From: Lachnospiraceae bacterium
Lineage (GTDB): Bacteria; Bacillota; Clostridia; Lachnospirales; Lachnospiraceae
Length of the DNA: 52,073 nt
Assembly (NCBI GenBank): GCA_015057435.1
Contig: SVEJ01000023.1
Span: 1 to 52,073, forward strand
Reading direction: 5' to 3'
In this document: piece after piece, positions 33,249-51,926 of the stretch
Layout: each line of letters opens with the position of its first letter
How positions within the stretch are numbered: the first letter of the stretch is position 1
Translations under genes and position numbers: made by a program
The notes under the pieces: generated by a model
The model's database searches: none
Seen by the model: only the letters and a program-made list of their open reading frames with translations
What the model was told of the DNA's origin: nothing

Positions 33249-33282
33249 AAAAAAGCGAGCAGTTTATACTGCTCGCTTTTTT
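33249..33282. terminator. Strong bidirectional terminator after pyrD
   Basis: A perfect 14-bp stem AAAAAAGCGAGCAG / CTGCTCGCTTTTTT with a TTTATA loop between the convergent pyrD and the minus-strand gene at 33298. Confidence 0.92.
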
Positions 33283-33297
33283 GCGTTAATCATGTTT

Positions 33298-34143
33298 TCA
33301 CTCTTCCCAAGGAATACAATACATAAGAAAATATTCATCATTACTTCCTTGATAGAGATGATAGATTTCTGTACCATCTGGTATCTGTGAATACACCATT
33401 TTTCGAAATGAAGATAAATCGGTGACATCTGTATTATTTAATATTAGAAGCTGTGACAAGGATGAGTCTGCCTCAATTGTAAAATCTGAGTACGTAGGAA
33501 CTCGAAATTCACTGTCTAAAAAAATAATATTTTCAGCATCTGTATACTGTGCCTTATAATAGTTATTGATAGCAGCACTCCATGAACTAGATAAGCTTTT
33601 CAATGTTTCTTTTGGATGGTTATTCCGAATTGCGAGTAGTGTGCCATTTTCGGTGATTAGTACCTCGTGTATTTCATCTGTATCATATCGATAGAAGGTC
33701 ACCTTCCAATAATAAGCGGAATACGTTTGGAAAGAGGATTCGGTACATTGATAGTAATTCGTTTTCCAAGTGTACCAATTGTTGTAAGCAGAGTCAAAAT
33801 GATAAGGATATGCATTCGCAGTATGTAATTGAGAGACTGCATTTCTGGCCAATTCTACAGCCTCGACTTCACTGATGTTAGCACTAGAAGTATCTATTTG
33901 GGTTTGTGTGCTGGCCCATGAACCGGATATCAATTTCATTCGCTCGTATTCCGTAAGCTTCAAAGAAGCATTTTTTGCAATAGCGGAGTTCGATGTATTA
34001 TATAAATCTGTTGATATCGGATTAACAGCACCCAACTTGGATGAAAAAGTGACGTGTAATAAAAAGCCTGGAAGAATGATGCCAAGAATTGTAACTAATA
34101 TAAAACTGGTGATTAAAACTGTTTTGTTATGAAAAATCTTCAT
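33298..34143 (-). CDS. Membrane-anchored extracytoplasmic protein of unknown function
   Basis: A 281-residue protein with a hydrophobic N-terminal segment (about residues 8-30) that acts as an uncleaved anchor or signal peptide, followed by an outside domain rich in Ser, Thr, Tyr and Asn. I do not recognise the fold. The region about 90-180 (EAVELARNAVSQLH, YYWKVTFYRYDTDEIHEVLITENGTLLAI) has the look of a PepSY-like helix-then-sheet unit, which would suit a sensor or inhibitor. It is divergent from the lipoprotein gene at 34367, and its promoter carries the same GATGCATTTTTGA box, exactly 20 bases before the -10, as the response regulator gene at 39423. It therefore probably belongs to that regulon. 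Confidence 0.75.
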   Translation of the reverse strand: MKIFHNKTVLITSFILVTILGIILPGFLLHVTFSSKLGAVNPISTDLYNTSNSAIAKNASLKLTEYERMKLISGSWASTQTQIDTSSANISEVEAVELARNAVSQLHTANAYPYHFDSAYNNWYTWKTNYYQCTESSFQTYSAYYWKVTFYRYDTDEIHEVLITENGTLLAIRNNHPKETLKSLSSSWSAAINNYYKAQYTDAENIIFLDSEFRVPTYSDFTIEADSSLSQLLILNNTDVTDLSSFRKMVYSQIPDGTEIYHLYQGSNDEYFLMYCIPWEE

Positions 34144-34205
34144 ATGTATCTTCCTCTTCCTGTGTTGTAATGTAAATTAATGACAACAGATTTTTTTATG
34201 AAAAG

Positions 34206-34294
34206 ATTATAACATATATTTTTGTCAAAAATGCATCTGTTTGATAACTTTTTGATGCAAAGGAATTGTACATTAATATTTATAAAAAGATAAT
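34206..34294. promoter_or_regulatory. Divergent promoters with 11-bp-phased GAT repeats (site 1)
   Basis: On +, TTGATAAC (34241-34248) and TTGATGCA (34252-34259) are direct repeats exactly 11 bases apart, just before TTGTAC (34266-34271), 17-base spacer, GATAAT (34289-34294). On -, GATGCA (34237-34232) is followed 11 bases later by GACA (34226-34223), and TATAAT (34211-34206) lies exactly 20 bases from GATGCA. The divergent region at 39465-39583 repeats this design. Direct repeats one helical turn apart are typical of OmpR-family sites. Confidence 0.7.
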
Positions 34295-34366
34295 CAAATA
34301 GCAGAGGATAAGATGATAGCTATTTCACACAGTATATGTTATAAACAATTTGAAAGGGAGAGGATT

Positions 34367-35830
34367 ATGAAAAAACAAGCAAAGTTCTATGTGATTTTAG
34401 GAATGATGTCGTTAATGCTATCTGGTTGTGGACAGAAAGAGGTTGTGTATGATACGGAAAGCACAACAACAGTGGAGAACAGTGAAAGTAGAAGTGAAGC
34501 ACCTGCTAATGCAACATTAAAGGATGAATTGGGAATTGGTGAAGATGAAACATGGAAGGAAACAATTCAAATGTCCAATGGAAGTGCAGATTTTAAAACA
34601 TCCATTACAGTTCCGGAGACTCAAAATATGTATACGGTTACGGCCAAGGAATATTATTTGACATCGGAGGATAAAAAGAAAATTGCAGAGTATTTTATGG
34701 ATGCAGATAGTATCCGTGTAGATAAGGATGTGTCAGTAACAAAGGAATCCTTGCAGGATAGAATTAATATGTATGAACAGGCTATTGCGGAAGGGAAGTA
34801 TCCAAAGTTTCAAATGATTATGCCGATGGATGCGTATGAACAATTTGTATATTCTACCTTTGATTATATTCAAGTGCCAACAGATCAAGAAAAGGCAAGT
34901 TATGAAAAAGAAATATCCAGATTGACAGGTCTTGTAAATGAGGCACCTGCGGCTGCAGACCTAGATGAACTTTCTGGTGATTATTTGGCAGAGGCATATA
35001 AAGGAAAAAAGAATGATGTGGAATATGCGATTTCTTTCTTTAATGATGAAACTAGAAATCGTTCTGCCTGGTCATTGCAGGCGGTTGATAAGAATCATTT
35101 CCTAGAGATAGAAGTGGAAGATGATGAACTGACATGCTGGGAGCTAGGTGCAGGGATAGATGGGGGATTTGTACCAAGCAATAATCTTTGTCAGTTGACA
35201 CCGGAAGAGGCGAAAGAACAGGCTAAGAAACTATGTGAGGACCTAGGGATGTATCATATGATGCCTGTAACTGCCAATCCTGCACAATGGGATAATGGCT
35301 CTGTAAAGGAGCTGAATGGTTATTTTGTAAGATTAGTAAGACAAATAGAAGGGGTTTCGGTGGATTATACAACGTATTTAGATGAAGAAACGTATCTAGA
35401 TGGAGAAAATACTATGTTACCATACAGTACGGAATGTGTAGAGGTGTGTTTGAATGATAAGGGAATCATTTCTGTATTTTGTAAAGGTATGCTGAAAGAA
35501 GAGCAGATGAGTGAACCTGTAAAGTTATTAGGTATCGACGAGGTACAAGAGGTGTTCAGACAAGAATTAAAGTCTGAAACGAAGGGATATATTGAGGGGT
35601 GGCAGACATTGGAGCTTTCGTATGTCAGAGTGAAAAATGATGAAGATCCGAATCAATTCACATATATTCCTGCCTGGAGATTGCGAATCAATGCAACGCA
35701 AGCCGGTTTCGCTATGGCAAGTACACGTCATTTTGTCTGGATTAATGCTATTGATGGAAGTAGAATTGATATGGATGCAAATGGAACGCCAACCTTATTT
35801 TATGCATATGGTCTTGGGGATTACGAATAA
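34367..35830 (+). CDS. Lipoprotein, paralogue 1 of a pair (DUF6034-like)
   Basis: A 487-residue surface lipoprotein. ATG 34367 is chosen because AAAGGGAGAGG is just upstream and a lipoprotein signal follows at once (KKQAKFYVILGMMSLMLSG, lipid-anchored C21); the longer frame from 34313 overlaps the promoter. After a disordered Ser/Glu linker comes a domain starting DETWKETIQMSNG, with SITVPETQNMYTVTAKEYYLT, and near the end TYIPAWRLRINA and VWINAIDGSRIDM. These stretches recur in the next gene at about the same spacing. I recall DUF6034 for such clostridial lipoproteins, but this is from memory. Its neighbours suggest a part of the two-component/ABC block, for example a ligand-binding or maturation factor. 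Confidence 0.82.
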   Translation: MKKQAKFYVILGMMSLMLSGCGQKEVVYDTESTTTVENSESRSEAPANATLKDELGIGEDETWKETIQMSNGSADFKTSITVPETQNMYTVTAKEYYLTSEDKKKIAEYFMDADSIRVDKDVSVTKESLQDRINMYEQAIAEGKYPKFQMIMPMDAYEQFVYSTFDYIQVPTDQEKASYEKEISRLTGLVNEAPAAADLDELSGDYLAEAYKGKKNDVEYAISFFNDETRNRSAWSLQAVDKNHFLEIEVEDDELTCWELGAGIDGGFVPSNNLCQLTPEEAKEQAKKLCEDLGMYHMMPVTANPAQWDNGSVKELNGYFVRLVRQIEGVSVDYTTYLDEETYLDGENTMLPYSTECVEVCLNDKGIISVFCKGMLKEEQMSEPVKLLGIDEVQEVFRQELKSETKGYIEGWQTLELSYVRVKNDEDPNQFTYIPAWRLRINATQAGFAMASTRHFVWINAIDGSRIDMDANGTPTLFYAYGLGDYE

Positions 35831-35875
35831 AGAAGCATAATATGCAAATAACGCATACGTTAAAGAGGTATTAGT

Positions 35876-37267
35876 ATGAGAGGTAAAAAAATAGTATTGG
35901 TAGCTAGTTGTCTAGCTTTGTTGTTTACCGGTTGTGATAAAGAAGAAGTGATATATGGTATGGATAATTCTTCTAAAGAAAGCCATTTAAATGAGGTCGA
36001 TACTACAGCAGTACAGAAAATAGATGGTAATTTGGCGGAGCAATTAGGTGTTACCGATACGGTCTGGAAAGAGACCATTTCTACAGGCGAAGAAGATATA
36101 TATGTCAATGCAAGTATTAGCATTCCGGAGGTTTCGGATATGTACACCTTAGAAGTATCGGAGCATTATTATACGCCAGAAGAGAAAAAGAAGCTGGTGG
36201 AGTATTTTATGGGAACGGATTCTGTAAAAGTAAATGTGGATAAAGTACCGACAAAAGAGTGGGCTAAGAAACGAATCGAGCATTGTGATAACGTGGTGCG
36301 CTCTGATTATCCTGCAGATCAAGGCTCATATGCACAAAGCTATTTGAATGAGAAGAAACGATTAGAAAATATCATGTCTACCTTGCCTGCAAAAGAAGAT
36401 GTTTCAGATATGATTACGGATTACAGTGAGAATCATTATATCTATAACAAAGATGGTGTGGAATATACATTATCCTTTGCTGTGGATGAAGAGGAGAATC
36501 GTTCTTCATGGATGATGTCTGCAGTAAATGAAAATGATTTCGCAGATAGAAGGTTATATCCAATATATAATACAAGTGGTTTCGATAATAACCTGTCAAA
36601 AATGACCAAGGAAGAGGCTTGCAAAAAGGCGGAGGCAATATGTGAAGATATTGGTCTTACGGATATGAAAGCCTTGTCTGTTGATGACTTGTTAATTCAA
36701 AGCAGGGGATTCGCATCTGATTCGACGGAAAATAGTCGTTGTGATGGGTATTACATTGTACTAACTCGTGGTATAGAAAATATAGCAGTGAATTGTACCA
36801 GATATTACGGGGAAGATATGTATTTGGATACGGAGAGAATGAAAAATGGTTATGCTCCGGAAAAAGTAATTATAGCAATCAATGATAATGGCTTGCTTGA
36901 AATGACCTATGAAGGTTGTCTTACGAAAGAAGCGATGGGTAGGCCAGTGAAGTTATTGGAATATGAACAGATTCAGAATATTATTCGTTCGGAGTTGGAA
37001 CATTCAGAAGCGCAGTCCAATACATGGCGTGGTTTATCTTTGGAATATATCCGTGTCTGGAACGAAGTAAAGTCGGACCAATATACCTACATTCCGGCAT
37101 GGTGCTTCAGTGTAGATGCGCCTTATGAGCAATCGAATTCAAATCCGGCATCGTACACCATCTGGGTGAATGCAATAGATGGAAGTCGTATTGATCTGAA
37201 GGAAGAGGGCGTGATTTACTACCAGACGATAGATGATGAGCTAGATTTGATGATGCTATTGGAGTAG
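35876..37267 (+). CDS. Lipoprotein, paralogue 2 of a pair (DUF6034-like)
   Basis: A 463-residue lipoprotein with signal MRGKKIVLVASCLALLFTG and lipid-anchored C20, 45 bases after its paralogue. Matching segments are TVWKETISTGEED, SISIPEVSDMYTLEVSEHYYT, EEKKKLVEYFMGTDSV, TYIPAWCFSVDA and IWVNAIDGSRIDL. The two proteins therefore come from an old tandem duplication, with clear divergence in the central 200 residues. Function is unknown. The gene ends only six bases before the stop of the convergent histidine kinase gene, with no visible terminator between, so their transcripts probably overlap. Confidence 0.82.
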   Translation: MRGKKIVLVASCLALLFTGCDKEEVIYGMDNSSKESHLNEVDTTAVQKIDGNLAEQLGVTDTVWKETISTGEEDIYVNASISIPEVSDMYTLEVSEHYYTPEEKKKLVEYFMGTDSVKVNVDKVPTKEWAKKRIEHCDNVVRSDYPADQGSYAQSYLNEKKRLENIMSTLPAKEDVSDMITDYSENHYIYNKDGVEYTLSFAVDEEENRSSWMMSAVNENDFADRRLYPIYNTSGFDNNLSKMTKEEACKKAEAICEDIGLTDMKALSVDDLLIQSRGFASDSTENSRCDGYYIVLTRGIENIAVNCTRYYGEDMYLDTERMKNGYAPEKVIIAINDNGLLEMTYEGCLTKEAMGRPVKLLEYEQIQNIIRSELEHSEAQSNTWRGLSLEYIRVWNEVKSDQYTYIPAWCFSVDAPYEQSNSNPASYTIWVNAIDGSRIDLKEEGVIYYQTIDDELDLMMLLE

Positions 37268-37273
37268 GTTCTA

Positions 37274-38743
37274 TTATGTTAGCGGTAGAGTAATGGTGAA
37301 AATGGACCCTTTACCTAATTCACTTTCTATATCCATGGTAGCACCATGACGAAGAATAATTAAAGATGCTAGCGACATACCAAGTCCTGCACCGCCTTCT
37401 GCGCGGGAGCGGGACTTGTCTGCCATATAGAACTCATCACAAATGTGCTGTTTTGTTTCTTCGTCCATTCCGCAGCCATGGTCCTCTACTTGAAATACAT
37501 ATGCGTTATCCTTGGAAAAACCACGGAACCATATAGTAGATTGTTCTGGTGAGGCTTTTCTAGCATTATCAATCAGATTAATAAATACCGTCTTTAGCAA
37601 TTCCAAATCACCATAAATGATAGAAGGATCCAACTCTGTTTCGAGATGGATTTCTTTTCGATCTAAGATTGGCTGCATACTTTCTGCAATTTCTTTTGCG
37701 ATGTCTAGAGCCTGGATTTCAGATCGAACCAAATCGTTATCCTTTAAATAAATCAAATCGAAGAGCTTCATAGACATGTTTTCTAGTCGTTTGCCTTCAC
37801 TATAGATATATTGATAAGCTAATTTTTTTCGTTCTTCTGTTAGTTCTTTGGAACGTAATGTATCTGCATAACCAATAATGGTAGTCATTGGTGTTTTGAT
37901 TTCGTGTGTAAAGTCTGCCACAAATTGTTCGCGCTGCTTCACCATGAGATTGAGTTCTTCGATATGTTGAGAAATGGCAAGAGCCATATTGTTGAATTTC
38001 TCAACTAGCATTCCAATCTCATCGTCGGAGGAAATGTCAGCACGGATCTCATAATTCCCTTGTGCAATGGTGTCTGTTACTTCGTTTAATTTCTCTAATG
38101 GTTTCGTTAACTTGGTGCTAATAACATAGAGAAACAAAGAGCAAATAGCTACCACCAAAATCATTAAAAAGAGAAAATAACCAATCTGACTATAGAGCAG
38201 ATTGTATGTATCGTTGACATTTCGTTTGGTGATGATGTATAACTCTTTTTCTTCTAAGATGTTTTTGGATGCAATAAAGAGTTGATAACCGGTTTCATCC
38301 TTGCATGTGATGTAGTTCTTACCACCAAATTCCAAAGAAGAAAAAAGGGTATTTGGAATAAAGTTCTGCTTCGAAAAAGATATCTTTTTCATGGCAACAT
38401 TTTTGCCAGAAGCAGTCGTGTCATGCATAGAAGCATCATTGCTATATACTAGTTTGTCGTCATAAAAGATATACAAAAAGGAGTTTCCGGACAGAAGCTG
38501 TGTGCTGGTGTCCTTGCCAGCTTCGTAAAGACTTTTGGCAATTTTCGGGTCTCGTTCATTTAAGACATCCAATAATGGATATTCGATGGATGCCTGAATT
38601 AAGTTGTTCTCCTCAATGGCATAGCTTGTCTGTATATCGATTGCCTGGTTGAAATTCTTATAAATCATAACAAATCCTAGTACACCTAAAGCAATGGATA
38701 TAAATGCAATATTAATCATAATAACTTTGTATCGAAAACGCAT
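37274..38743 (-). CDS. Sensor histidine kinase
   Basis: A 489-residue membrane kinase. Transmembrane helices lie at about 8-28 and 189-209, enclosing an outside sensor domain of 160 residues with no recognised PAS or Cache motif. A HAMP linker (210-262) leads to the HisKA domain with phospho-acceptor H280 in DFTHEIKTPM, then the HATPase domain with N box NLIDNARKAS, G1 DHGCGM, F box DEFYMADKS and G2 GAGLGMS. All catalytic boxes are present. It follows the response regulator by 11 bases on the minus strand. It probably senses an envelope signal linked to the ABC and lipoprotein genes around it. Confidence 0.93.
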   Translation of the reverse strand: MRFRYKVIMINIAFISIALGVLGFVMIYKNFNQAIDIQTSYAIEENNLIQASIEYPLLDVLNERDPKIAKSLYEAGKDTSTQLLSGNSFLYIFYDDKLVYSNDASMHDTTASGKNVAMKKISFSKQNFIPNTLFSSLEFGGKNYITCKDETGYQLFIASKNILEEKELYIITKRNVNDTYNLLYSQIGYFLFLMILVVAICSLFLYVISTKLTKPLEKLNEVTDTIAQGNYEIRADISSDDEIGMLVEKFNNMALAISQHIEELNLMVKQREQFVADFTHEIKTPMTTIIGYADTLRSKELTEERKKLAYQYIYSEGKRLENMSMKLFDLIYLKDNDLVRSEIQALDIAKEIAESMQPILDRKEIHLETELDPSIIYGDLELLKTVFINLIDNARKASPEQSTIWFRGFSKDNAYVFQVEDHGCGMDEETKQHICDEFYMADKSRSRAEGGAGLGMSLASLIILRHGATMDIESELGKGSIFTITLPLT

Positions 38744-38754
38744 ATTGTTCTCCT

Positions 38755-39423
38755 TTATTCTTTGGAATCCAATCGATAACCGGATTTGTATAATGTCTTT
38801 AGGTGTTTTTCTATACCCACTTTTTTGCGGAGACGTTGTATATGAAGTTCCAAGGTTCTAGTGTTACCATCATGTTCTGTTTCCCATACCGCTTCGTATA
38901 TGGAATCTCTATGTAAGACCATATCCTTGTTGCGAACAAAATATACCAGTAAATCAAATTCCTTCGGAGTCAAATCGATGGTCGTGTTGTTTTGGGTAAC
39001 GGTTCTCTTATCCAAGTCGATAATAAGGTCATGAAATGCTAATATTTTTTCACTTTTGTGGAAGCGTCGCAACACTACATTCACCCGGGCTAACAATTCC
39101 GATATTTCGAAAGGTTTCACAATGTAGTCCTCTGCACCCAAATTCAAACCCTTTACGCGATCTTCTAAAGATGCTTTTGCTGTTAAGAAGATAACAGGGA
39201 TGTGAAGAGGTTTGATATAACTAAGCAGCTCATATCCGTCCACCTGTGGCAACATAATATCAAGAAGAACCAGGTCGAAATTCTGTTCTTCCAACAAATC
39301 AGCAGCAGCCAGTCCGTCGTATACGCAGGTACATTGAAATCCTTCGTCTTCTAAATTCATTTTAATTAAGTCTGAGATTGGTATCTCATCTTCAACAATT
39401 AGTACATTTGCTTGTGCTTTCAA
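38755..39423 (-). CDS. OmpR-family response regulator
   Basis: A 222-residue regulator. The receiver domain has acidic pocket E11-D12, phospho-acceptor D55 in LVLLDIMLPQVDG, Thr in FLTAKAS and Lys in IVKPFEIS. The C-terminal winged helix (about 130-222) shows ID LTPKEFDLLVYFVRNKD and the recognition helix region TRTLELHIQRLRKKVG. It is co-transcribed with the kinase downstream. Its own promoter contains three GAT units spaced 11 bases apart and the -10 TATACT, so autoregulation is likely. The same spaced units occur in the other divergent promoter of the block, making this the best candidate for the regulator of the whole locus. Confidence 0.95.
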   Translation of the reverse strand: MKAQANVLIVEDEIPISDLIKMNLEDEGFQCTCVYDGLAAADLLEEQNFDLVLLDIMLPQVDGYELLSYIKPLHIPVIFLTAKASLEDRVKGLNLGAEDYIVKPFEISELLARVNVVLRRFHKSEKILAFHDLIIDLDKRTVTQNNTTIDLTPKEFDLLVYFVRNKDMVLHRDSIYEAVWETEHDGNTRTLELHIQRLRKKVGIEKHLKTLYKSGYRLDSKE

Positions 39424-39464
39424 TCGTATTTCCTCCGCGTATTCTTTCGTTATTTTAATCCTAC

Positions 39465-39583
39465 AGTATATATCAAGATTGTATCAAAAATGCATCATTT
39501 CATAAATAGTAAATGCTGTAAATAACAGTACTTAGATAACTTTTAGATGCAATGTTTTTGTAAGATATGTAAGTTGGTTTAAT
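39465..39583. promoter_or_regulatory. Divergent promoters with 11-bp-phased GAT repeats (site 2)
   Basis: On -, GAT units lie at 39496-39494, 39485-39483 and 39474-39472, an exact 11-base period, and TATACT (39470-39465) is 20 bases from GATGCA, as in site 1. On +, TTAGATAAC (39532-39540) and TTTAGATGCA (39542-39551) give TAGAT at 39533 and 39544, again 11 apart, followed by TTTTTG, 17-base spacer, TTTAAT (39578-39583). These sites lie between the response regulator gene and the adaptor operon. Confidence 0.7.
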
Positions 39584-39608
39584 AGGTAGAGTGATAAGGG
39601 GTGTGCTG

Positions 39609-40655
39609 ATGGAGGATAGAAAGTGCGATTGGATAAATTGCAAAAATAATCAAATGAACGGAAAACAGAAGTTGTATATGTATCTTTGCATATGTTTTTT
39701 TGCGGTGATATTAACTGGTTGTAATACGAAAGGTGTGGTAAACAGCGATGCACCACAGGTAACGATCGCAGAATATCAAAAGGACATTTATCAAACCACC
39801 ATTGTGCAGTGTAAAACGATAGAACCAAAACTAGTTCTTACTTTGACACCGGATGAGTATGAGGTTAACTCCTATTCGATACAACAGGATTTATTGAAGG
39901 TAGCAGAGTGTTATGTGGAAGAGGGAGAACGCGTGGAAGCTGGAGAAGTCATGGTTACTTTTGAAAATGATGGTTTAGAGAAGGCGATTGAACAATATGA
40001 ACAGAGAAAGACAGAAGATCAATTGCTAATTGATCATTATACGAAGTTACAAAAGATTGATAGAAGCCAGAATTATAAAAAAGATATTAAGAAATTGAAA
40101 GCGGATATCAGTGTGGTACAAGCCTATATAAATGAAAAGAAAGCAATGTTGTCTGACTATCAACTGGTGGCGAGTAAGGCGGGTGTTGTTACCGATGTCA
40201 GTGAACAGTTACATCAAGGATATGCCAGAAAAGCAAGCACTTTAATTAAGGTGGCATCAGGCTCTTCGAATTATATTACAGCCACATCGGATGACTATGC
40301 GTTTCAAGTAGGAGATACCTATGATGCGACATGTAACATGGCAAGTTATGAAATGAAGGTTATAAATGTCGTAAATGAGGATGAAAAACACCAGATTGTA
40401 TTTGAACCGGTATCGGATATGACAGGAATTACAGAAACGGATGAGTTGATATTAGAGATTGCAAAAACACCGATTTCCAATGCGATTTGTGTGGAAGAAG
40501 AGGCGATTGTGACAGTGCGAGATAATAAGTATGTGTTTTTATTGGATGAACAGGGGTATAGACATGCGGTTCCTGTAACGGTTCGTGAAGTGATTGACGG
40601 GTATGCCATTCTATCAAATGGTATAGAGCAAGGAGAGCAGGTGACATTGAATTGA
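39609..40655 (+). CDS. HlyD/MacA-like lipoprotein adaptor, single unit
   Basis: A 348-residue periplasmic-adaptor-like protein of a Gram-positive ABC system. ATG 39609 has AAGGGG seven bases upstream; the lipobox ILTGC then places the lipidated Cys at 38, after an unusually long polar leader (ATG 39654 would give a standard one but has no ribosome binding site). The lipoyl-like half VAECYVEEGERVEAGEVMVTFEN, a coiled-coil hairpin (about 105-175) and the closing half LVASKAGVVTDVSEQLHQGYA form the typical barrel-sandwich hybrid. A beta-barrel and a membrane-proximal domain follow, the latter containing YVFLLDEQGYRHAVPVTV. Its stop overlaps the next adaptor start. It probably links the permease to the cell-wall space. 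Confidence 0.85.
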   Translation: MEDRKCDWINCKNNQMNGKQKLYMYLCICFFAVILTGCNTKGVVNSDAPQVTIAEYQKDIYQTTIVQCKTIEPKLVLTLTPDEYEVNSYSIQQDLLKVAECYVEEGERVEAGEVMVTFENDGLEKAIEQYEQRKTEDQLLIDHYTKLQKIDRSQNYKKDIKKLKADISVVQAYINEKKAMLSDYQLVASKAGVVTDVSEQLHQGYARKASTLIKVASGSSNYITATSDDYAFQVGDTYDATCNMASYEMKVINVVNEDEKHQIVFEPVSDMTGITETDELILEIAKTPISNAICVEEEAIVTVRDNKYVFLLDEQGYRHAVPVTVREVIDGYAILSNGIEQGEQVTLN

Positions 40656-42904
40656 GAGGAAAACAAATTGTATGTATGGTGTTATGTCTTGTTTTATTAA
40701 ATGGCTGTGGCGCAGAGCAGGAGATACCAGAGTTAATAGAACCGGTAGTTAATAATGAATCCTTTCGTCCGGTGGAGTATGGAAGTGTATCAAAAATGGA
40801 AATACAAATTGCGGATGTGGTGCCAGAGGAATATTGTCATTTTGCAACAAAAGCCGCAACATTAGATGAGATTTGCGTGGATTTGGGACAATACGTAGAG
40901 GAAGGGGATATGCTCGCGACCATTGATGTATCTGATGCCCGAATGGAACTTACGGCAAAGCAAAAGGAACTTGATTTGTGCAAGAATAATTATTCCTATC
41001 AAGAAAAAATATACAAAGAACAGATACAAATTGAGAAATATAAAAAAGCTGATTTCAAAAATAAAAAGGATAAGAAGTCTTTGAATAAATGTGATACTGC
41101 ATTGCAGGTTTTGGAAGAGAACAAACATTATGGCAAACTGCTTTATGAACATCAAATGACAATGCTAGAGGAGGAGATTACAAAATTACAGGAGAATGTT
41201 GCGGAAGGGACAATTAGAGCAACACATTCTGGTTATGTGACATATGTTAAGAATCTTGAAAAAACGAATTCCATTAGCGCGTATGAGAATGTGGTAATTG
41301 TTTCGGACTATGAAGAACTGCACTTAGAGTTATCAGAAGATATTTCGTCCCGATTTTATACACATTATATCGGAGATGTCTATAATCAAATCTATGCAAA
41401 TGTAAATGGAAAACAGCGAGAAGTGGAGGTATATGAATATTCCAATCAAGAGTTGGTTGCAATGCAAAGCGCAGGTAGCTTCTCTAGAATCCGCTTGGAG
41501 CTGGATGGTTTGAACGCAGATGTGACTGTGGGAGATAAGATGTTGGTCTATTTTACAAATTCCAACAAGGAGCATGTGCTTCGCATTGGAACAGATTCGT
41601 TGTATAGCGATGGCAAGAATCATTTTGTATATGTGAAAAAAGGGAATAGCAAAGAAAAGCGAGAAATCCAAATTGGTCATCAAGGGGAAGTTTACGTTGA
41701 AATCATAGATGGTTTGAAAGAAGGAGAATGGGTATATTATTCTTCTGGTTCCATTATGCCAGAACAGTATGAAATGTATACGGTTGAAAACAGTGACTAT
41801 ACACCAACCAATGGAGATCTTAATCTCAAAGGCTCCTTGGCATATACAAAGATGTATCCTTATACATTTGAAAAGGATGCAGTGGTGAAAGCGATTTATT
41901 TTGCAAATGGTGATGAGGTGAAAAAGGGAGATTTGATTTGTGTGCTAGATGCAAAAACCGGTAGTGCACAGTTAAAAGAAATGAAACAGAATATGTCGAA
42001 TCTCACGCAGGATTATGAATCCAATATGGATTCTTTGGATAAGCAGATTAAGGAATTAAATAAACAGATAAAAAACGGTAAAAAGAAGAAAAACGATAAA
42101 AATGAAGAAGGGCTTACGAAAGATTCAAAGGAACAAAAAACAACCCTCGTTGAGCAGCTTCAGTGTCAAAAAACGATTCTGCAGTATGAAAAGAAGAAAA
42201 TGCAGGCGCAGTACGAATATGATTATCAGATGCTACAGCAGGAGTATGAGCGCATGTTGGAAACGAATAGCGGTCAAGGCTCCCTTGAAATATACGCGGA
42301 GCAGGATGGCATTTTAAATAATCTGAATGTTTATGAAGACAAAGAATGGAAGGCTGAAGAGGGGACAATTCTATTTCATATATGTGATGCTGATAGTAAA
42401 AAACTATTCGTCAATACAAAGACGGATTATGTGGGTGTAGGCAATCAGATATCTGTGAAAAATGGAGAGGATTATAATTTGTATCATACAGGAATCGTTG
42501 TAGGTAATTCGGTGACAGAAAAGGCTTATGTTGCAATGAAAGAGGACAAGGTTTACATAACACAAAACGGTGGTATTGATAGCGATAATAAAGTATATGT
42601 TTCCATGCAAGATATTTCTATGGATGAAGAAAATTGGAGGAATGAGATTGTTGGAAATCAGGTTAGCTATTCCCTTGCCAATCTGCGTAATGTTGTTGTG
42701 ATTCCTAGCACCATGCTGTATGAGGAAGTCAATCGACAAAATTCCGAAAGTAAGCAGTATTATGTGTGGAAAATTGTTGAGGATATATTGGTAAAGCAAT
42801 ATGTACAAATTGAGGAAAACTTTGATACATCCAATCAAGTATGTATTTTAGATGGGTTAGAAACTGGCGATATCTTGGCGAAACCAAGAGTGAATGAGGA
42901 GTAA
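40652..42904 (+). CDS. Double-unit HlyD/MacA-like lipoprotein adaptor
   Basis: A 750-residue lipoprotein starting at TTG 40652, overlapping the previous stop by four bases; lipobox LLNGC gives C19. It contains two adaptor units in tandem. Unit 1: CVDLGQYVEEGDMLATIDVSD, a charged coiled coil (about 105-180), ATHSGYVTYVKN, then HFVYVKKGNSKEKREIQIG and LKEGEWVYYSS. Unit 2: KAIYFANGDEVKKGDLICVLD, a longer Lys-rich coiled coil (about 435-545), AEQDGILNNLNVYEDK, then YYVWKIVEDILVKQYVQIE and LETGDILAKP. Single-unit adaptors are about 350-400 residues, so this is an internal duplication or fusion. With the neighbouring single-unit adaptor it supplies three adaptor units per gene set, an unusual count. 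Confidence 0.83.
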   Translation: MRGKQIVCMVLCLVLLNGCGAEQEIPELIEPVVNNESFRPVEYGSVSKMEIQIADVVPEEYCHFATKAATLDEICVDLGQYVEEGDMLATIDVSDARMELTAKQKELDLCKNNYSYQEKIYKEQIQIEKYKKADFKNKKDKKSLNKCDTALQVLEENKHYGKLLYEHQMTMLEEEITKLQENVAEGTIRATHSGYVTYVKNLEKTNSISAYENVVIVSDYEELHLELSEDISSRFYTHYIGDVYNQIYANVNGKQREVEVYEYSNQELVAMQSAGSFSRIRLELDGLNADVTVGDKMLVYFTNSNKEHVLRIGTDSLYSDGKNHFVYVKKGNSKEKREIQIGHQGEVYVEIIDGLKEGEWVYYSSGSIMPEQYEMYTVENSDYTPTNGDLNLKGSLAYTKMYPYTFEKDAVVKAIYFANGDEVKKGDLICVLDAKTGSAQLKEMKQNMSNLTQDYESNMDSLDKQIKELNKQIKNGKKKKNDKNEEGLTKDSKEQKTTLVEQLQCQKTILQYEKKKMQAQYEYDYQMLQQEYERMLETNSGQGSLEIYAEQDGILNNLNVYEDKEWKAEEGTILFHICDADSKKLFVNTKTDYVGVGNQISVKNGEDYNLYHTGIVVGNSVTEKAYVAMKEDKVYITQNGGIDSDNKVYVSMQDISMDEENWRNEIVGNQVSYSLANLRNVVVIPSTMLYEEVNRQNSESKQYYVWKIVEDILVKQYVQIEENFDTSNQVCILDGLETGDILAKPRVNEE

Positions 42905-42909
42905 AGAAT

Positions 42910-45732
42910 ATGTTTGTATTTGTTAAAAGAAAAATACAGAATAAGAAATGTCTAAATGGATGCTTACTGTTAGGAATTACTTTGCTGATTGCGGTTGCTT
43001 CCTGTACGCCGATGTTTCAAAAAGGTTCGCTCAATATGCTGCTGCATAGCAAGTTTGAAACGGTTATTAGAGAAGAAAATGTATATCCGGCGGTGATATC
43101 TAGAAGTGCAAGAGTAGAAGGAGAAGATGTATCTTATGCATCCATTACGGAAAAGATAAGTGGTTATTTGCAGACTTGGAAGAAGTACATAGAAGTCCCG
43201 GAACAGGCGACGCAACAACACATTTGGATAGATGGATATTTTATTAAGCGTGAGTACGGATTAAATGCAGATTGGATGGAGATTGGTTGTATTCCAAACA
43301 TGGAGGAACATGTTGAAGTTTTAGCTACTGAGTCTTTGGATGTGTTACAGACATCAAAGCAGGTCTATCCTTGTATGATGACAGAATCTGTAATGGACAG
43401 GTTTGGATTAATACTAGGAGAAACGATTACATTTGAGGGCATTGTGGATGAGAATGAAAATCCCCTTGTGTTATGCATTTCTGGTATATTCGATGAAGGT
43501 AATGCTACTGATGTGTTTTGGCATGTGGAAGCAGATGAATATGAGAAGCAATTGTTCGTGGATGAGGAGGTCATGGATAGCATAATTGAAAAATATTCCG
43601 TTTCGGCAATTAACTATGAAGTGTATTATTTGTTGGATTATTTGAAAATGAATAGTAACAACGCTTTGGATATGCTGTATTATTTAGAACAATTTCGTGA
43701 GAAAGATGTAGCACTAGTAGAAAGCATCAGTGAGATTTTAGAGGACTATGTTACCGAGATGAAATTTGTCAATACAATTTTCTGGGTATTGGAGTTACCT
43801 ATTTTTGTTGTTTTATTGGCATTTATTTATATGGTATCCGGACAGATTTTGAATATGGAAAAGGGAGAAATAGCAATGCTTGGCAGCCGAGGACTATCGA
43901 CTGTTCAAATCATGTCAATCTATTTGCATCAATCAGGTGTCTTAGCTAGTGTTGGTGTTTTGCTAGGGTTGCCACTAGGATTTTTATTATGTAAGCTGGC
44001 AGCGTCTACGGATGCATTTTTGGAATTTTCTTGGAAGGCGACAGAGGTGTATAAGCCAACTGTTATGATGGTAGTTTATGCGATGGTAGCAGCTGTGTTT
44101 GCTATGGCGTTTGTGACGGTTCCGGTACTATTCTATGCCAAGGATTCTGTTGTAGGACAAAAGAAGAAGCGGATTTTGAATCGCAATTGCAGTTTTGTGG
44201 AGAAATATTGGCTGGATGCAATTTTGCTAATCTGCTCCCTTTACTTATTGTACAATCACAAGAAGCAATTAGATGTACTAATTGAGCAGGTTGTGACCGG
44301 ACAATACATGGATCCACTGATTTTTTTGAATGTTACATTATTTTTGTTTGGGGCTGGTTTGTTGGGCTTACGATTGCTTCGTTATAGTGCAAGTCTGATA
44401 TTTCGCTTTGGAGAGTCAAGATGGAAAACGTATACCTATGCGTCCTTTTTACAGATTATACGTGCAGATAGAACCCAGAGGTTTATTTCTGTATTTTTGA
44501 TATTTACAGTGGCGATGGGCATTTTCAACGCAACAGTGGCTGGAACGATTAATGAGAATAAAGAAAACAGGATTCGCTACAACATTGGTACAGATATCAT
44601 TGTTTCGGAACAGTGGAAACCGGAAGTATATATGGATAGCACTTTGAAAAAATCCGTACGCTACTATGTGGAGCCTGATTATCAGAAGTATGCTGGTTTG
44701 TCACCGCAATTTGTGGAGTCTATGACAAGGGTTATTAGGGATAAGAAGATTGAGATTTCCGGTGGTGGTAAAACAGTAGAAAACTGCGAGATGATGGCAA
44801 TTCACACAAAGGAGTTTGGTGAAACAGCTACTCTTAAAAATGGTCTGAATGAGATACATTGGTATCATTATCTCAATGACCTTGCTACTACCGGTTCTGG
44901 TGTGCTGATTTCGAAAAATCTTGCAGAGGAAATGGAGCTAAAGGTTGGAGATGGTATTCGTTATACAAGGCACAATGATTTGCTTGGAGAAGGAGAGGAT
45001 AATAAAACAAACTGTAATGGCATTATATGTGGGATTTTTGATTCCTGGCCGGGATTTATGCAATATCAATACAGATATGATGAAAATGGTAAGCGTGTGG
45101 AACAACAACACTATATGATTGTAACAAACTATGCTTATACAGTGAATGTATTTGGTGACACACCGTATGAAATATGGATGAAGAAAAAGAGCAACACAAG
45201 TCTTTTGGATGTAGAAGCATATCTATCAAAGAATAATATTGTGACCACATCGGTTATAGGAGCAATGGAAGAGGTGGAACAGGCAAAGAGTGAGGCAATG
45301 GTACAGATTACAAACGGTTTGTTTACCCTTAGTTTTTTGGTTAGTGTGCTTTTGTGTACGATTGGATTCTTGATTTATTGGATGACCGCTATCAAACAAA
45401 GAGGAATGCTGTATGGCATTTATCGTGCGATGGGTATGGGCATTCGGGAGGTTAGTAAGATGCTTTTGTATGAACTAAGCTTTTCCTCTCTACTTGCCGG
45501 ATTGCTTGGATGTTTGGCAGGCTTTGTTGCATCCCTATTGTATACCAATGTATTAGCAGTCGTCTATTTGCCGGAAAAACATAATATTGTTTTGCGGACA
45601 CAGTGGAGTGGTATGGATATCGTTCGTATGCTGACACTTATCGTTTGTATGGTACTGGTTTGCTTTGTGGTGTTAAAGAGACAGATTCGTAACTCTGATA
45701 TTTTGCAGGCTATTAAAATGGGGGAGGATTAA
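42910..45732 (+). CDS. Large double-FtsX ABC permease
   Basis: A 940-residue membrane protein with two FtsX-like modules. Module 1: helix at about 16-35, an outside domain of about 250 residues, then helices near 295-315, 345-375, 390-415 and further ones at 435-500, with the FtsX-type MEKGEIAMLGSRGLSTVQIMS. Module 2: helix near 535-555, an outside domain to about 800, then helices near 805-830, 855-885 and 905-925, with KQRGMLYGIYRAMGMGIREVSK. It follows the double adaptor by five bases and abuts the first ATPase, so it is the transmembrane part of the same machine. As one chain with two modules, it acts as a covalent pseudo-dimer. No peptidase domain is present. Confidence 0.88.
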   Translation: MFVFVKRKIQNKKCLNGCLLLGITLLIAVASCTPMFQKGSLNMLLHSKFETVIREENVYPAVISRSARVEGEDVSYASITEKISGYLQTWKKYIEVPEQATQQHIWIDGYFIKREYGLNADWMEIGCIPNMEEHVEVLATESLDVLQTSKQVYPCMMTESVMDRFGLILGETITFEGIVDENENPLVLCISGIFDEGNATDVFWHVEADEYEKQLFVDEEVMDSIIEKYSVSAINYEVYYLLDYLKMNSNNALDMLYYLEQFREKDVALVESISEILEDYVTEMKFVNTIFWVLELPIFVVLLAFIYMVSGQILNMEKGEIAMLGSRGLSTVQIMSIYLHQSGVLASVGVLLGLPLGFLLCKLAASTDAFLEFSWKATEVYKPTVMMVVYAMVAAVFAMAFVTVPVLFYAKDSVVGQKKKRILNRNCSFVEKYWLDAILLICSLYLLYNHKKQLDVLIEQVVTGQYMDPLIFLNVTLFLFGAGLLGLRLLRYSASLIFRFGESRWKTYTYASFLQIIRADRTQRFISVFLIFTVAMGIFNATVAGTINENKENRIRYNIGTDIIVSEQWKPEVYMDSTLKKSVRYYVEPDYQKYAGLSPQFVESMTRVIRDKKIEISGGGKTVENCEMMAIHTKEFGETATLKNGLNEIHWYHYLNDLATTGSGVLISKNLAEEMELKVGDGIRYTRHNDLLGEGEDNKTNCNGIICGIFDSWPGFMQYQYRYDENGKRVEQQHYMIVTNYAYTVNVFGDTPYEIWMKKKSNTSLLDVEAYLSKNNIVTTSVIGAMEEVEQAKSEAMVQITNGLFTLSFLVSVLLCTIGFLIYWMTAIKQRGMLYGIYRAMGMGIREVSKMLLYELSFSSLLAGLLGCLAGFVASLLYTNVLAVVYLPEKHNIVLRTQWSGMDIVRMLTLIVCMVLVCFVVLKRQIRNSDILQAIKMGED

Positions 45733-46437
45733 ATGATGAAAGACAATATTATTCGAACTTCTCACATTGTTCGCACATTTCCTGTTGCTACGGGAGAAAC
45801 ATTTCTTGCCTTAAAAGATATAGATATTGATATAGCAAGGGGAAAGTTGACAATTTTGAAAGGACGTTCCGGTTCCGGGAAAACAACACTACTTAATATC
45901 TTAAGTGCTTTAGATGATGCCACTAGCGGAGAGCTGTATTTTGAAGAGGAATCGATTGCAGAGCTTGATTGTGGAGAAAGAGAACGACTTCGCAGGCAGC
46001 AGATGGGATTTGTGTTTCAGTCGATTGCACTGATACCGATTATGAATGCATATGAAAATGTAAATTTTGCTTTGCGTTTGGCAGAATATGAGGGAAACCG
46101 TGATGCAAGAATACGAGAGGTTCTTTCTATGGTTGGATTGGAGGAACGTATGCAACATTTACCGGCTCAAATGTCCGGTGGGGAACAACAAAGGGTAGCG
46201 ATTGCAAGAGCGGTTGCTCATAGGCCAAAGGTGATTTTTGCCGATGAACCAACCGGAGCGTTGGATACGATGAATGGTTTGTCGGTGATGAAACTGTTTA
46301 GGGCCTTGATTGAGCAAGAAGGAATTACGATTGTTATGACAACCCATGACCCCAATTTGATGGAGTTTGGTGATGTAGTATATGAGATAGAGGATGGTGA
46401 GTTGATTGGACGAGAAGAACATACTCATTCGCTGTGA
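45733..46437 (+). CDS. MacB/LolD-type ABC ATPase A
   Basis: A 234-residue ATPase of the lipoprotein/macrolide-exporter group. Walker A GRSGSGKTT is at residues 44-52, the Q-loop is in FVFQSIALIPIMN, the signature MSGGEQQRV is near 147, Walker B is VIFADEPTGALD, and the switch His is in MTTHD. All motifs are intact. It starts directly after the permease stop with GGGGAGG, and its end overlaps the second ATPase gene by 32 bases. Standard length, no extra domains. Confidence 0.93.
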   Translation: MMKDNIIRTSHIVRTFPVATGETFLALKDIDIDIARGKLTILKGRSGSGKTTLLNILSALDDATSGELYFEEESIAELDCGERERLRRQQMGFVFQSIALIPIMNAYENVNFALRLAEYEGNRDARIREVLSMVGLEERMQHLPAQMSGGEQQRVAIARAVAHRPKVIFADEPTGALDTMNGLSVMKLFRALIEQEGITIVMTTHDPNLMEFGDVVYEIEDGELIGREEHTHSL

Positions 46438-47302
46438 TGGATTGGTAAAGATATACCAATGCGATGATGTGGAAGTAATGGCATTGCAGGGATTGGATTT
46501 ACAAATTGAACAAGGCGAATTGCTAGCAATTATCGGGAAAAGCGGAAGTGGAAAATCTACGCTAATGAACATGATAGGAGGGCTAGAGCGTCCTACGGCA
46601 GGAAAGCTTTACCTAGATGGTGAGGATTTGTATGCAAAAAGCGATAAGGAAATGACCATATACCGCAGAGAACAGGTTGGATTTGTATGGCAGATGAGTT
46701 CAAAAAATCTAATTCCTTATCTGCCCGCGGTGGAAAATGTGGAAGCTCCGATGCGAGGGATGGGTGTCGGGAAAGAAGCAATGAGGGAACGGGCATTATC
46801 CCTGTTAGAACGTGTAGGCTTATCCCATAAGAAAGACGCATATCCGCATCAAATGTCCGGTGGAGAACAGCAAAGAGTTGCCATTGCAGTTGCATTGGCA
46901 AATGAACCTAAAATTTTGTTGGCTGATGAACCGACCGGGGCATTGGATACAAAAACCTCAAATCAGATTCAGGATTTGTTTCGTTCCCTTAATGAAGAAC
47001 TGGGGATTACAATTATTATTGTGACCCATGATATGAAACTGGCACATAAAGTAGATCGTGTTCTTATGATATCCGATGGGAAAATCAGTACAGAAAAGGT
47101 GTTGAAAGAGGATTATCGCAAGGCGTTACAACAACTAGAAGATGACAGCATGTTGAACCTGTTCACACATGAAGAGTATTCTGTGTTAGACAAAGCAGGA
47201 AGATTGCAACTAAATGATGAAATGCTAGAGGCAGCGGGAATAGATGGTAATCGCGTGAAGGTGGAGATTATGGATGGTAAAGTGGTGATTTCAAAGGAGT
47301 AG
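46406..47302 (+). CDS. MacB/LolD-type ABC ATPase B with C-terminal extension
   Basis: The 298-residue partner ATPase starting at TTG 46406 inside the first ATPase gene. Walker A is GKSGSGKST at residues 44-52, the Q-loop is replaced in context by FVWQMSSKNLIPYLP, the signature MSGGEQQRV, Walker B ILLADEPTGALD and switch VTHD are intact. Unlike ATPase A it carries about 75 extra C-terminal residues (LKEDYRKALQQLEDDSM...VKVEIMDGKVVIS), which resemble a small regulatory add-on of unknown function. Two non-identical intact ATPases beside one double permease suggest a heterodimeric motor. A terminator follows. Confidence 0.9.
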   Translation: MDEKNILIRCDGLVKIYQCDDVEVMALQGLDLQIEQGELLAIIGKSGSGKSTLMNMIGGLERPTAGKLYLDGEDLYAKSDKEMTIYRREQVGFVWQMSSKNLIPYLPAVENVEAPMRGMGVGKEAMRERALSLLERVGLSHKKDAYPHQMSGGEQQRVAIAVALANEPKILLADEPTGALDTKTSNQIQDLFRSLNEELGITIIIVTHDMKLAHKVDRVLMISDGKISTEKVLKEDYRKALQQLEDDSMLNLFTHEEYSVLDKAGRLQLNDEMLEAAGIDGNRVKVEIMDGKVVISKE

Positions 47303-51112: not shown

Positions 51113-51140
51113 GAGCAGGAGTAACAATCTGCTCTTTTTT
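51113..51140 (+). terminator. Terminator-like hairpin before mobC
   Basis: GAGCAG (51113-51118) pairs with CTGCTC (51129-51134), followed by six T residues. It would stop transcription entering the mobilisation genes. Confidence 0.7.
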
Positions 51141-51162
51141 GTGTGCCGGATTGGAGGAATTT

Positions 51163-51555
51163 ATGAGAAGCACAGATAAAAAGAAAGAAAATATGGTTCT
51201 GATGTCCATGCGTATTTCGGCAGAGGATAAGGAACAGATTGAAGCAAAGGCGAGAAAGAGCGGACTTAGCACATCGGAATATATCAGGCGTTGTGCATTG
51301 GGAAGAAAGCTTCCCTGTTATGGCGATACCGGTCTGTTGAAGGAGTATTCCGTGCAACTGGGTAAGATTGGTTCTAACCTAAATCAAATAGCAAAGCACT
51401 TAAATGGTGGTGGTGATTTTTACAGCATTTATTATGAATTAAAGGAAGCCATAAGAGAACTGTTGGATTTAAAATTTAAAATACTTCCTACGCTGGAGGA
51501 TGTTGCCTGTGGAAAGAAACACAGGCGTAAAAGAAATAAGGAGGGTGAAGAATAA
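51163..51555 (+). CDS. mobC: Mobilisation protein MobC
   Basis: A 130-residue relaxosome accessory protein that helps the relaxase at oriT. ATG 51163 follows TGGAGG; the longer frame from 51139 is not used. The N-terminal part is a ribbon-helix-helix-like DNA-binding region (VLMSMRISAEDKEQIEAKARKSGLSTSEYIRRCALGR). The C-terminal half has the MobC pattern GKIGSNLNQIAKHLNGGG and a basic tail. It is the normal length. The stop overlaps the relaxase start (TAATG), so the pair is co-translated. It marks an integrative conjugative or mobilisable element, such as those of the Tn1549 group. Confidence 0.9.
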   Translation: MRSTDKKKENMVLMSMRISAEDKEQIEAKARKSGLSTSEYIRRCALGRKLPCYGDTGLLKEYSVQLGKIGSNLNQIAKHLNGGGDFYSIYYELKEAIRELLDLKFKILPTLEDVACGKKHRRKRNKEGEE

Positions 51556-51926
51556 TGGCGATTTTAAAGCATATTTCAGTAAAGAACAGATTCTATTCCT
51601 CGGCGGTGGAGTATCTCACCTGCCAGTTTGATGAATATACCAATAAGCCCATATTGGATGAAAAAGGCAGAATACAGGAGCGCGAGAATTATCTGATATC
51701 AGGTGTAAACTGTGATGTGGATAGCTTTGGTGCGGAATGTATCGAGGTCAATCGTCTGTATGGCAAGAATAATTCCGTAAAGGATGTAAAGGCACATCAC
51801 TATATCATCAGCTTTGAGCCAAATGATTCCATTACCATGGAATTAGATAAGTGGATACTATTGGCTTTATGGCGAACTGTTATATGTTGCAGTTCGCCGG
51901 TAGTAAAATGTCAGGGAATCTACTAG
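51555..51926 (+). pseudogene. Relaxase, truncated after about 97 codons
   Basis: The N-terminus of a MobA/VirD2-type relaxase that nicks oriT for transfer. It begins AILKHISVKNRFYSSAVEYL and keeps the metal-binding motif start AHHYIISFEPND, both characteristic. At about 51843, after NDSITME, the sequence stops resembling a relaxase and reads into an unrelated tail until TAG at 51924-51926. Full-length relaxases are about 400-600 residues, so most of the nuclease domain is missing. The break is probably a recombination or insertion point, and the element is not self-mobilisable unless the rest is supplied elsewhere. Confidence 0.85.
51871..51898. repeat. 9-bp hairpin after the relaxase break
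   Basis: GGCGAACTG (51871-51879) / CAGTTCGCC (51890-51898) with a 10-base loop. No T-run follows, so it is not a classical terminator. It lies between the relaxase break and the tandem repeats, possibly near the end of an inserted element. Confidence 0.6.

Follow-up and report, generated by a model that had tools for sequence, protein, structure and literature searches.

A block of ten genes in a 52,073-nt contig of a Lachnospiraceae bacterium (assembly GCA_015057435.1, 2.73 Mb; SVEJ01000023.1, contig 14 of 74; hereafter the window) probably encodes a YbbP-type, type VII (mechanotransmission) ATP-binding cassette (ABC) machine that runs on a fixed heterodimer of two different ATPases and has its own signaling system; the heterodimer, the stoichiometry, the substrate class and the direction of export are what we infer. 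The machine is a previously undescribed variant of the type VII ABC transporters, and its new parts are a second ATPase, the tailed form of ATPase AT2 and a set of three adaptor units.

All ten open reading frames (ORFs) listed in an earlier sequence-only reading were found in place. The genes for two adaptors (Ad1, Ad2), the permease and two ATPases (AT1, AT2) form, in this order, a tightly packed run on the plus strand. A histidine kinase (HK) and a response regulator (RR) are transcribed in the opposite direction out of a common gap (39424–39608), and the genes of two lipoproteins (LpA, LpB) and of an anchored protein, S, diverge from a second gap (34144–34312).

Conservation of a five-gene core

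Gene neighborhoods were taken from search matches, with the best 80 of 356 relatives taken in one contig search, and ORFs were labeled by core-gene profiles derived from 12–13 loci. This gave 186 permease loci including the window, corresponding to 168 distinct permease sequences. As judged by these neighborhoods, the conserved unit is Ad1 (adaptor unit u1), Ad2 (units u2–u3), permease, AT1 and AT2. Both ATPase genes lie on the strand of the permease in 161 of the 186 loci; in 144 of these no more than 100 nt separate AT1 from the permease, and in 131 AT1 and AT2 overlap. The 157 complete triples reduce to 128 distinct ones at 90% permease identity. Such an arrangement is well outside what chance would give: the permease has matches at E ≤ 1e-40 in 47/397 genomes of the family, 48/392 of the order and 7/249 of the phylum. 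By record title, the relatives are mostly metagenome-assembled genomes of Lachnospiraceae from gut and rumen; the annotated records inspected give the transporter proteins generic names only. Three loci (L159, L218 and L180) are labeled Bacteroidales or Bacteroides; the labels look wrong, and the first two apparently belong to G009, of the window's genus.

Co-occurrence, the adaptor unit profiles and the separate ATPase clades together bear out the claim that two ATPases, a doubled permease and three adaptor units belong together. The broader claim of nine genes acting as one unit did not hold, since the lipoproteins, HK, RR and S accompany only part of the loci with a fused adaptor. Parts occurring apart and at random, which the sequence-only reading had named as grounds for refutation, were seen for the lipoproteins, and not for the ATPases and adaptors.

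Permease

Two FtsX matches in Pfam agree with the double-FtsX permease of 940 residues originally described. The length is 915–1004 residues in all 181 uncut relatives, which is not that of a short MacB/YknZ-type permease. In the predicted structure, ten helices are present and an extracytoplasmic domain follows the first helix of each FtsX unit. A Foldseek search with this model returned a YbbP-type (YbbAP) structure as the best match; BceB and YtrEF structures were also matched, and the LolC and LolE chains cover half the model. The coupling motifs are conserved but unlike between the permease halves (SRG versus RAMG). YbbP is described as a single polypeptide that forms an internal pseudo-dimer, with ten helices, a pair of coupling helices and two extracytoplasmic domains, and BceB as a ten-helix fused permease with one extracytoplasmic domain (PMC12646458). 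The sequence-only reading had taken known relatives to be short homodimeric permeases only, a view that these two proteins do not support. As fused pseudo-dimers are already known, the novelty lies in the two dedicated motors and the three non-equivalent adaptors.

When the ATPases were compared with the two coupling helices for co-variation, clade signal prevailed both in a low-rank method and in mutual information, with no convincing internal contacts recovered by either; a within-clade shuffle test gave no excess above controls. Weak hints, for example permease residue 333 with AT2 residue 100, were discarded, these tests being without power.

ATPases

Both ATPases match ABC_tran, have intact motifs and belong to separate clades, in line with the proposal of two distinct, intact MacB-type ATPases. 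Among uncut sequences, Walker A and the Walker B motif DEP are present in 165/165 AT1 and 161/161 AT2, and the ABC signature in 165/165 and 160/161, respectively; the H-loop triplet was not recognized as TH(D/N) or SHD in four AT1 and two AT2. The clades were separate in a tree of 46 AT1, 46 AT2 and 12 reference rows, where the three reference rows falling inside them are the AT1/AT2 of L071 and L075. The best NCBIfam models are FtsE for AT1 and LolD for AT2, both under their equivalog cut-offs, and an AT2 profile run against PDB chains placed Rv1281c/DppD on top, followed by MJ0796, LolD, MacB and YbbA.

Past the H-loop, AT2 continues for a median of 90 residues versus 23 in AT1. This tail contains an AbrB/MazE-like motif (HEEYxVLDxAGRLQIP...); one of seven tails matches MazE_antitoxin (28.3 bits, cut-off 24.7), and weak MraZ/SymE/MazE matches occur in others. 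Among PDB chains, AbrB reached E-values of 0.003–0.005, ranked behind signal recognition particle chains at about 0.001. A tail profile matched 14 genomes among 60 relatives: all 13 with a true permease orthologue, and one through a false match in Ffh. The tail was rejected as exclusive to this system, being present in actinobacterial ATPases too.

As a control, eleven stretches of the window's own genome with further FtsX permeases were inspected; several of these permeases are double, and at most one MacB-type ATPase adjoins any of them. The MacAB-like locus of this genome has a single gene each for ATPase, adaptor and short permease. The same genome contains a second AT2 interrupted by a contig start (L341, G000:C41:1-669), and a search of the assembly gave no further permease orthologue. 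In L353 and L354 (G015:C15), and also in L078/L200, a prophage-like element of ~48 kb separates an AT1 fragment from AT2; it carries integrase, endolysin and baseplate proteins as judged by PHROGs, and the ATPase gene seems to have served as a prophage integration site. Neither a pair of ATPases serving one FtsX permease nor an ABC ATPase with an AbrB tail is described in the listed titles and abstract openings of the open-licence literature, which are weak evidence of absence.

Adaptors

The profiles for u1, u2 and u3 derive from 44 loci with three adaptor genes, none of them over-long; the window is not among these loci. Ad1 scored as u1 (138 bits), Ad2 residues 7–362 as u2 (229 bits) and Ad2 residues 371–743 as u3 (94 bits versus 66 and 35 for the other units, the weakest assignment), which confirms one single-unit and one double-unit adaptor with three units in all. 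The adaptors score weakly in Pfam: Ad2 matches Biotin_lipoyl_2 (34.4, cut-off 29.8) and falls just below the RND_mfp cut-off (92.2 against 94.9), and Ad1 is weak with general models (RND_mfp 40.6). As judged by these scores, Ad1 and Ad2 are HlyD/MacA-type adaptors (membrane fusion proteins) with the lipoyl-type and barrel domains of that family, Ad1 by way of the u1 unit profile.

The fused form, with two adaptor genes of which one encodes at least 600 residues, was found in 105 loci (L317 among them is doubtful), and three separate adaptor genes in 48, five of which have one member called by position and length only; six single-adaptor and 27 other loci, many of them cut, were set aside from these counts. 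By a loose pattern, lipobox-like motifs are present on 44 u1, 41 u2 and 39 u3 proteins of the 48 split-form loci, so that three separate lipoproteins came before the fused form, or a fused form was later split. By its unit profile matches, the double adaptor Ad2 is a fusion of u2 and u3.

Lipoproteins, signaling genes and promoter boxes

The sequence-only reading had described LpA and LpB as paralogs and HK and RR as a kinase/regulator pair. Both descriptions are upheld: the lipoproteins match DUF6034 and share 33% identity, and the pair is of an ordinary type. As judged by the lipobox and ribosome site, LpA probably starts at ATG 34367 rather than 34313. The structure model of LpB matches the folds of YycH, YycI and YpeB, and by this comparison DUF6034 lipoproteins model as putative kinase regulators of the YycH/YycI kind. 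Their suggested role as an outer component of the machine was abandoned because of this fold and because DUF6034 is also found next to another ABC system that has its own HK/RR pair.

Upstream sequence of at least 8.5 kb was available for 88 fused-adaptor loci, which contain DUF6034 in 45, RR in 30, HK in 27 and S in 23 cases; 22 of the 23 with S also have HK and RR. None of the four was found in the 38 split-adaptor loci with equally long upstream sequence. Among all 48 split-adaptor loci, L245 is the sole one with a lipoprotein, and two show weak matches to other two-component proteins. DUF6034 lipoproteins are present in one to five copies. A profile comparison of S (alignment of six rows) with the DUF6034 lipoproteins showed no common origin, searches of PDB sequences with the S and lipoprotein profiles returned nothing useful, and no mention of DUF6034 was found in the open-licence literature.

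DUF6034 was also observed in other settings. One recurrent cluster (L087–L094) contains an HK/RR pair together with an ABC ATPase that we read as ABC-2 type, small membrane proteins and a further membrane or secreted protein. In another (L096:7936-10922 and L097:7899-10883), a short DUF6034 lipoprotein comes after genes of 208 and 368 residues; in L096 this group is close to a 1365-residue gene that we take to be Cas9-like. In L095 (G003:C128, same genus), S, LpA and the box pair of the S/LpA gap lie beside pyrD-side genes where the contig ends, and a search of that genome (G003) gave no permease orthologue.

The box TKYRTC-N5-KKYATC forms inverted pairs in both divergent gaps, is absent elsewhere in the assembled genome and recurs in relatives, and the transporter and signaling genes therefore most likely form one regulon. 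The notion of a signaling system belonging to the transporter is supported by the box shared by the transporter and signaling gaps; HK, RR and S lie beside only part of the fused-adaptor loci.

Wider relatives

In the outgroup loci L320 and L322–L324 and in Paenibacillus cellulosilyticus (NZ_CP054609.1) the order is AT1–adaptor–permease–AT2, with a single adaptor closest to u1, and the Paenibacillus AT2 also carries the tail. Two OEP (TolC-like) genes lie directly upstream in L320, which hints at efflux. A sugar-type SBP_bac_1 gene directly follows AT2 in L359:9136-10698 (Paenibacillus) and L324:1719-3170. From a plasmid collection, the permease query retrieved one distant Paenibacillus match, and the Paenibacillus AT2 query three actinobacterial ones. 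Tailed AT2-like ATPases adjoin large FtsX-type permeases in Nonomuraea, Kitasatospora and Streptomyces clavuligerus; Kitasatospora has two large FtsX permease genes, and in S. clavuligerus the second is annotated in two pieces. A second ATPase adjoins in Nonomuraea and Kitasatospora (AT1/AT2 profile bits of 222.1/221.9 and 235.5/221.8, respectively; its kinship to AT1 is uncertain), and none is annotated in the S. clavuligerus stretch.

Features of the window

The features of the locus are collected in Table 1; the flanking genes vary from locus to locus. Searches of the window with Rfam (gathering cut-offs) and for tRNAs gave no matches, and promoter- or terminator-like sites in the window were not in excess over shuffled sequence. 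A near-symmetric terminator-like stem of 15 pairs with A and T runs (33249–33282), which possibly acts on both strands, lies between a gene ending at 33245 and S. Close to the window end, 51139–51926 may be the beginning of a mobilization module; its PHROGs matches are unknown-function families only, and we presume from the sequence that its products are MobC- and relaxase-like.

Table 1. Positions of genes, units and candidate regulatory boxes in the window
Feature	Position	Strand	Remarks
S, 281 residues, hydrophobic N-terminal anchor	33298..34143	-	No match in Pfam/NCBIfam
Regulator box 1, TKYRTC-N5-KKYATC direct repeat, S/LpA divergent gap	34221..34237	+	
Regulator box 2, inverted relative to box 1	34243..34259	-	
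LpA, DUF6034 lipoprotein	34313..35830	+	72.3 bits, cut-off 27
LpB, DUF6034 lipoprotein, predicted YycH/YycI-like fold	35876..37267	+	80.2 bits; structure model
HK, histidine kinase (HAMP, HisKA, HATPase)	37274..38743	-	Long N-terminal part ahead of HAMP
RR, OmpR-family response regulator	38755..39423	-	
Regulator box 3, RR/Ad1 divergent gap	39480..39496	+	
Regulator box 4, inverted relative to box 3	39535..39551	-	
Ad1, lipoprotein adaptor, unit u1	39591..40655	+	Alternative start ATG 39609
Ad2, fused lipoprotein adaptor	40652..42904	+	u2, 40670-41737; u3, 41762-42880
Permease, 940 residues, two FtsX units	42910..45732	+	Ten long helices, two extracytoplasmic domains
Permease coupling helices (predicted)	about 43846-43944 and 45394-45477		
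AT1, ATPase without C-terminal extension	45733..46437	+	
AT2, ATPase with C-terminal AbrB/MazE-like tail	46406..47302	+	Tail about 47171-47299

Proposed mechanism and alternatives

We propose that one permease polypeptide would supply both halves of the membrane domain, with AT1 and AT2 sitting beneath it as a fixed heterodimer, one ATPase per non-identical coupling helix. The lipid-anchored, non-equivalent units u1, u2 and u3 would build a conduit or cap across the wall-proximal space. ATP binding would close the ATPases, pull the helices together and drive the two extracytoplasmic domains, and these may then lift an envelope substrate, hydrophobic or amphipathic, out of the outer leaflet and pass it to the adaptor conduit. 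The YycH/YycI-like lipoproteins and S would tune sensing by HK, and RR would bind the paired boxes in both divergent gaps and turn on the transporter and lipoprotein genes together with its own. As to function, our best estimate, from YbbAP, LolCDE, MacAB and the OEP neighbors, is that the machine exports an envelope compound that is hydrophobic or amphipathic.

Several observations weigh against this proposal. One or both ATPases are missing nearby in 25 of the 186 loci (AT1 only in nine, AT2 only in one, neither in 15); 12 of these are interrupted by a contig end and two (L078 and L200, the same locus) are split by the prophage, and 11 without a recognized ATPase pair in the stretch covered are unexplained (L276, L301, L303–L305, L308, L311–L314 and L317; in L313 less than 1 kb of downstream sequence is covered). 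In seven further loci an ATPase pair lies ~7 kb downstream or 10 kb upstream. Clade support falls to 0.85 for AT1 and 0.37 for AT2 once the Paenibacillus and most actinobacterial ATPases join the tree, so that the deep AT1/AT2 relationship is unsure, and the co-variation tests, lacking power, tied neither ATPase to either half of the permease. Because the box pattern comes from the four window sites, the relatives are its sole test, and an exact match is missing in 167 of the 187 fetched loci scanned; score cut-offs may also miss diverged HK, RR, S and lipoproteins. No gene of the block reveals the substrate, flanking genes are unlike between loci, and TolC-like neighbors occur in one relative locus only (L320).

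Four other explanations were considered. The motors could be interchangeable, with AT1 and AT2 forming alternative homodimers on one permease for two working modes; catalytic motifs are intact in both, and YbbAP operates with a pair of identical ATPases (PMC12646458). We regard this as unlikely given that AT1 and AT2 are co-inherited, overlap translationally and keep a mostly fixed order, and that SRG and RAMG differ as expected for two different partners. It is also rather improbable that the permease and ATPases chiefly sense envelope damage for the kinase, in the style of BceAB-BceS, with transport secondary: the linkage to HK, RR and S, the shared box and the BceB fold match fit such a role, but these signaling families accompany none of the 38 split-adaptor loci (weak other matches in 2/48), the adaptors hint at a conduit, L320 has two OEP genes, and the permease has two extracytoplasmic domains where BceB is described with one (PMC12646458).

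To the idea that AT2 is no motor and instead an AbrB-type DNA-binding or regulatory subunit resembling an ATPase we give very little credence; it draws on the single MazE_antitoxin match (28.3 versus 24.7, one of seven tails), against Walker A and B in 161/161 and the signature in 160/161 uncut AT2. Finally, the machine might be the dedicated exporter of one home-made product, for example a bacteriocin or lipoprotein, as described for MacB relatives (PMC5985334). In Pfam and NCBIfam scans, none of the ten block proteins was recognized as a precursor or maturation protein, and the flanks differ across loci, which makes this a slim prospect.

The heterodimeric YbbP-type machine is thus the preferred reading, and its evolutionary extension is put forward more tentatively. 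It is possible that the system represents a separate type VII subclass, with (i) a fused permease, (ii) two permanent, non-equivalent ATPases, only one of them with an AbrB-like control domain, (iii) a hetero-oligomeric adaptor ring of three subunits, and (iv) YycH/YycI-like lipoproteins coupling it to a private kinase. Two copies each of the three adaptor subunits would give a hexamer. The two-ATPase plan would be old, since it is found in clostridia, Paenibacillus and Actinobacteria (in the last of these beside a pair of large FtsX permeases, where no adaptor was observed), and the adaptors would have gone from one to three, two of which then fused.

In MacB, LolCDE, YbbAP and BceAB the two ATPases are identical copies, so the work of each site is inseparable. 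In the window system the sites belong to separate genes and could be inactivated one at a time, so that it becomes directly testable whether the two halves of the cycle do different work. The natural series of one adaptor, three adaptors and fused adaptors may show how adaptor sets turn asymmetric, and the analysis gives DUF6034 its first functional interpretation and suggests a regulon for a transporter that is widespread in gut and rumen.

Comparison with known systems

The type VII ABC system YbbAP-TesA of E. coli shares the single-chain pseudo-dimer of ten helices, including its two coupling helices and its two extracytoplasmic domains, and differs in having one ATPase in two copies plus TesA, whereas the window encodes two ATPases plus adaptors. 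Two different ATPases encoded together speak, as read from genes alone, against a YbbAP-style pair of copies. No TesA-type hydrolase is among the ten block proteins; the rest of the genome was not searched.

MacAB-TolC, YknWXYZ and Spr0693-0695 have in common with the window an FtsX-type permease, a MacA-like adaptor and a homologous ATPase. Theirs is a short homodimeric permease with one ATPase type and one adaptor type, in contrast to the fused permease, two ATPases and three adaptor units here; the window has adaptor types u1, u2 and u3, and outgroup loci and Paenibacillus have one adaptor only. No TolC-like gene is present in the block, and the window's own genome was not searched for OEP. 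TriABC, a Pseudomonas pump, likewise has more than one adaptor gene in its operon, but two adaptors, in an RND rather than an ABC pump.

BceAB-BceS resembles the window system in its ten-helix fused permease and linked HK/RR, but is described with one extracytoplasmic domain, against two in our permease model. It has one ATPase and is not known to have an adaptor. LolCDE is similar in its two unlike membrane halves (LolC and LolE), which are on separate chains, with one ATPase type and no known adaptor. The YtrBCDEF operon of Bacillus subtilis also encodes two nucleotide-binding proteins, YtrB and YtrE, and its membrane proteins YtrC and YtrD are separate; it is not known to have adaptors or a double permease. 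YycH/YycI of WalK resemble LpB in its predicted fold and in lying beside a histidine kinase, whereas the DUF6034 lipoproteins are lipid-anchored, occur in one to five copies and are missed by a sequence-profile search of PDB chains.

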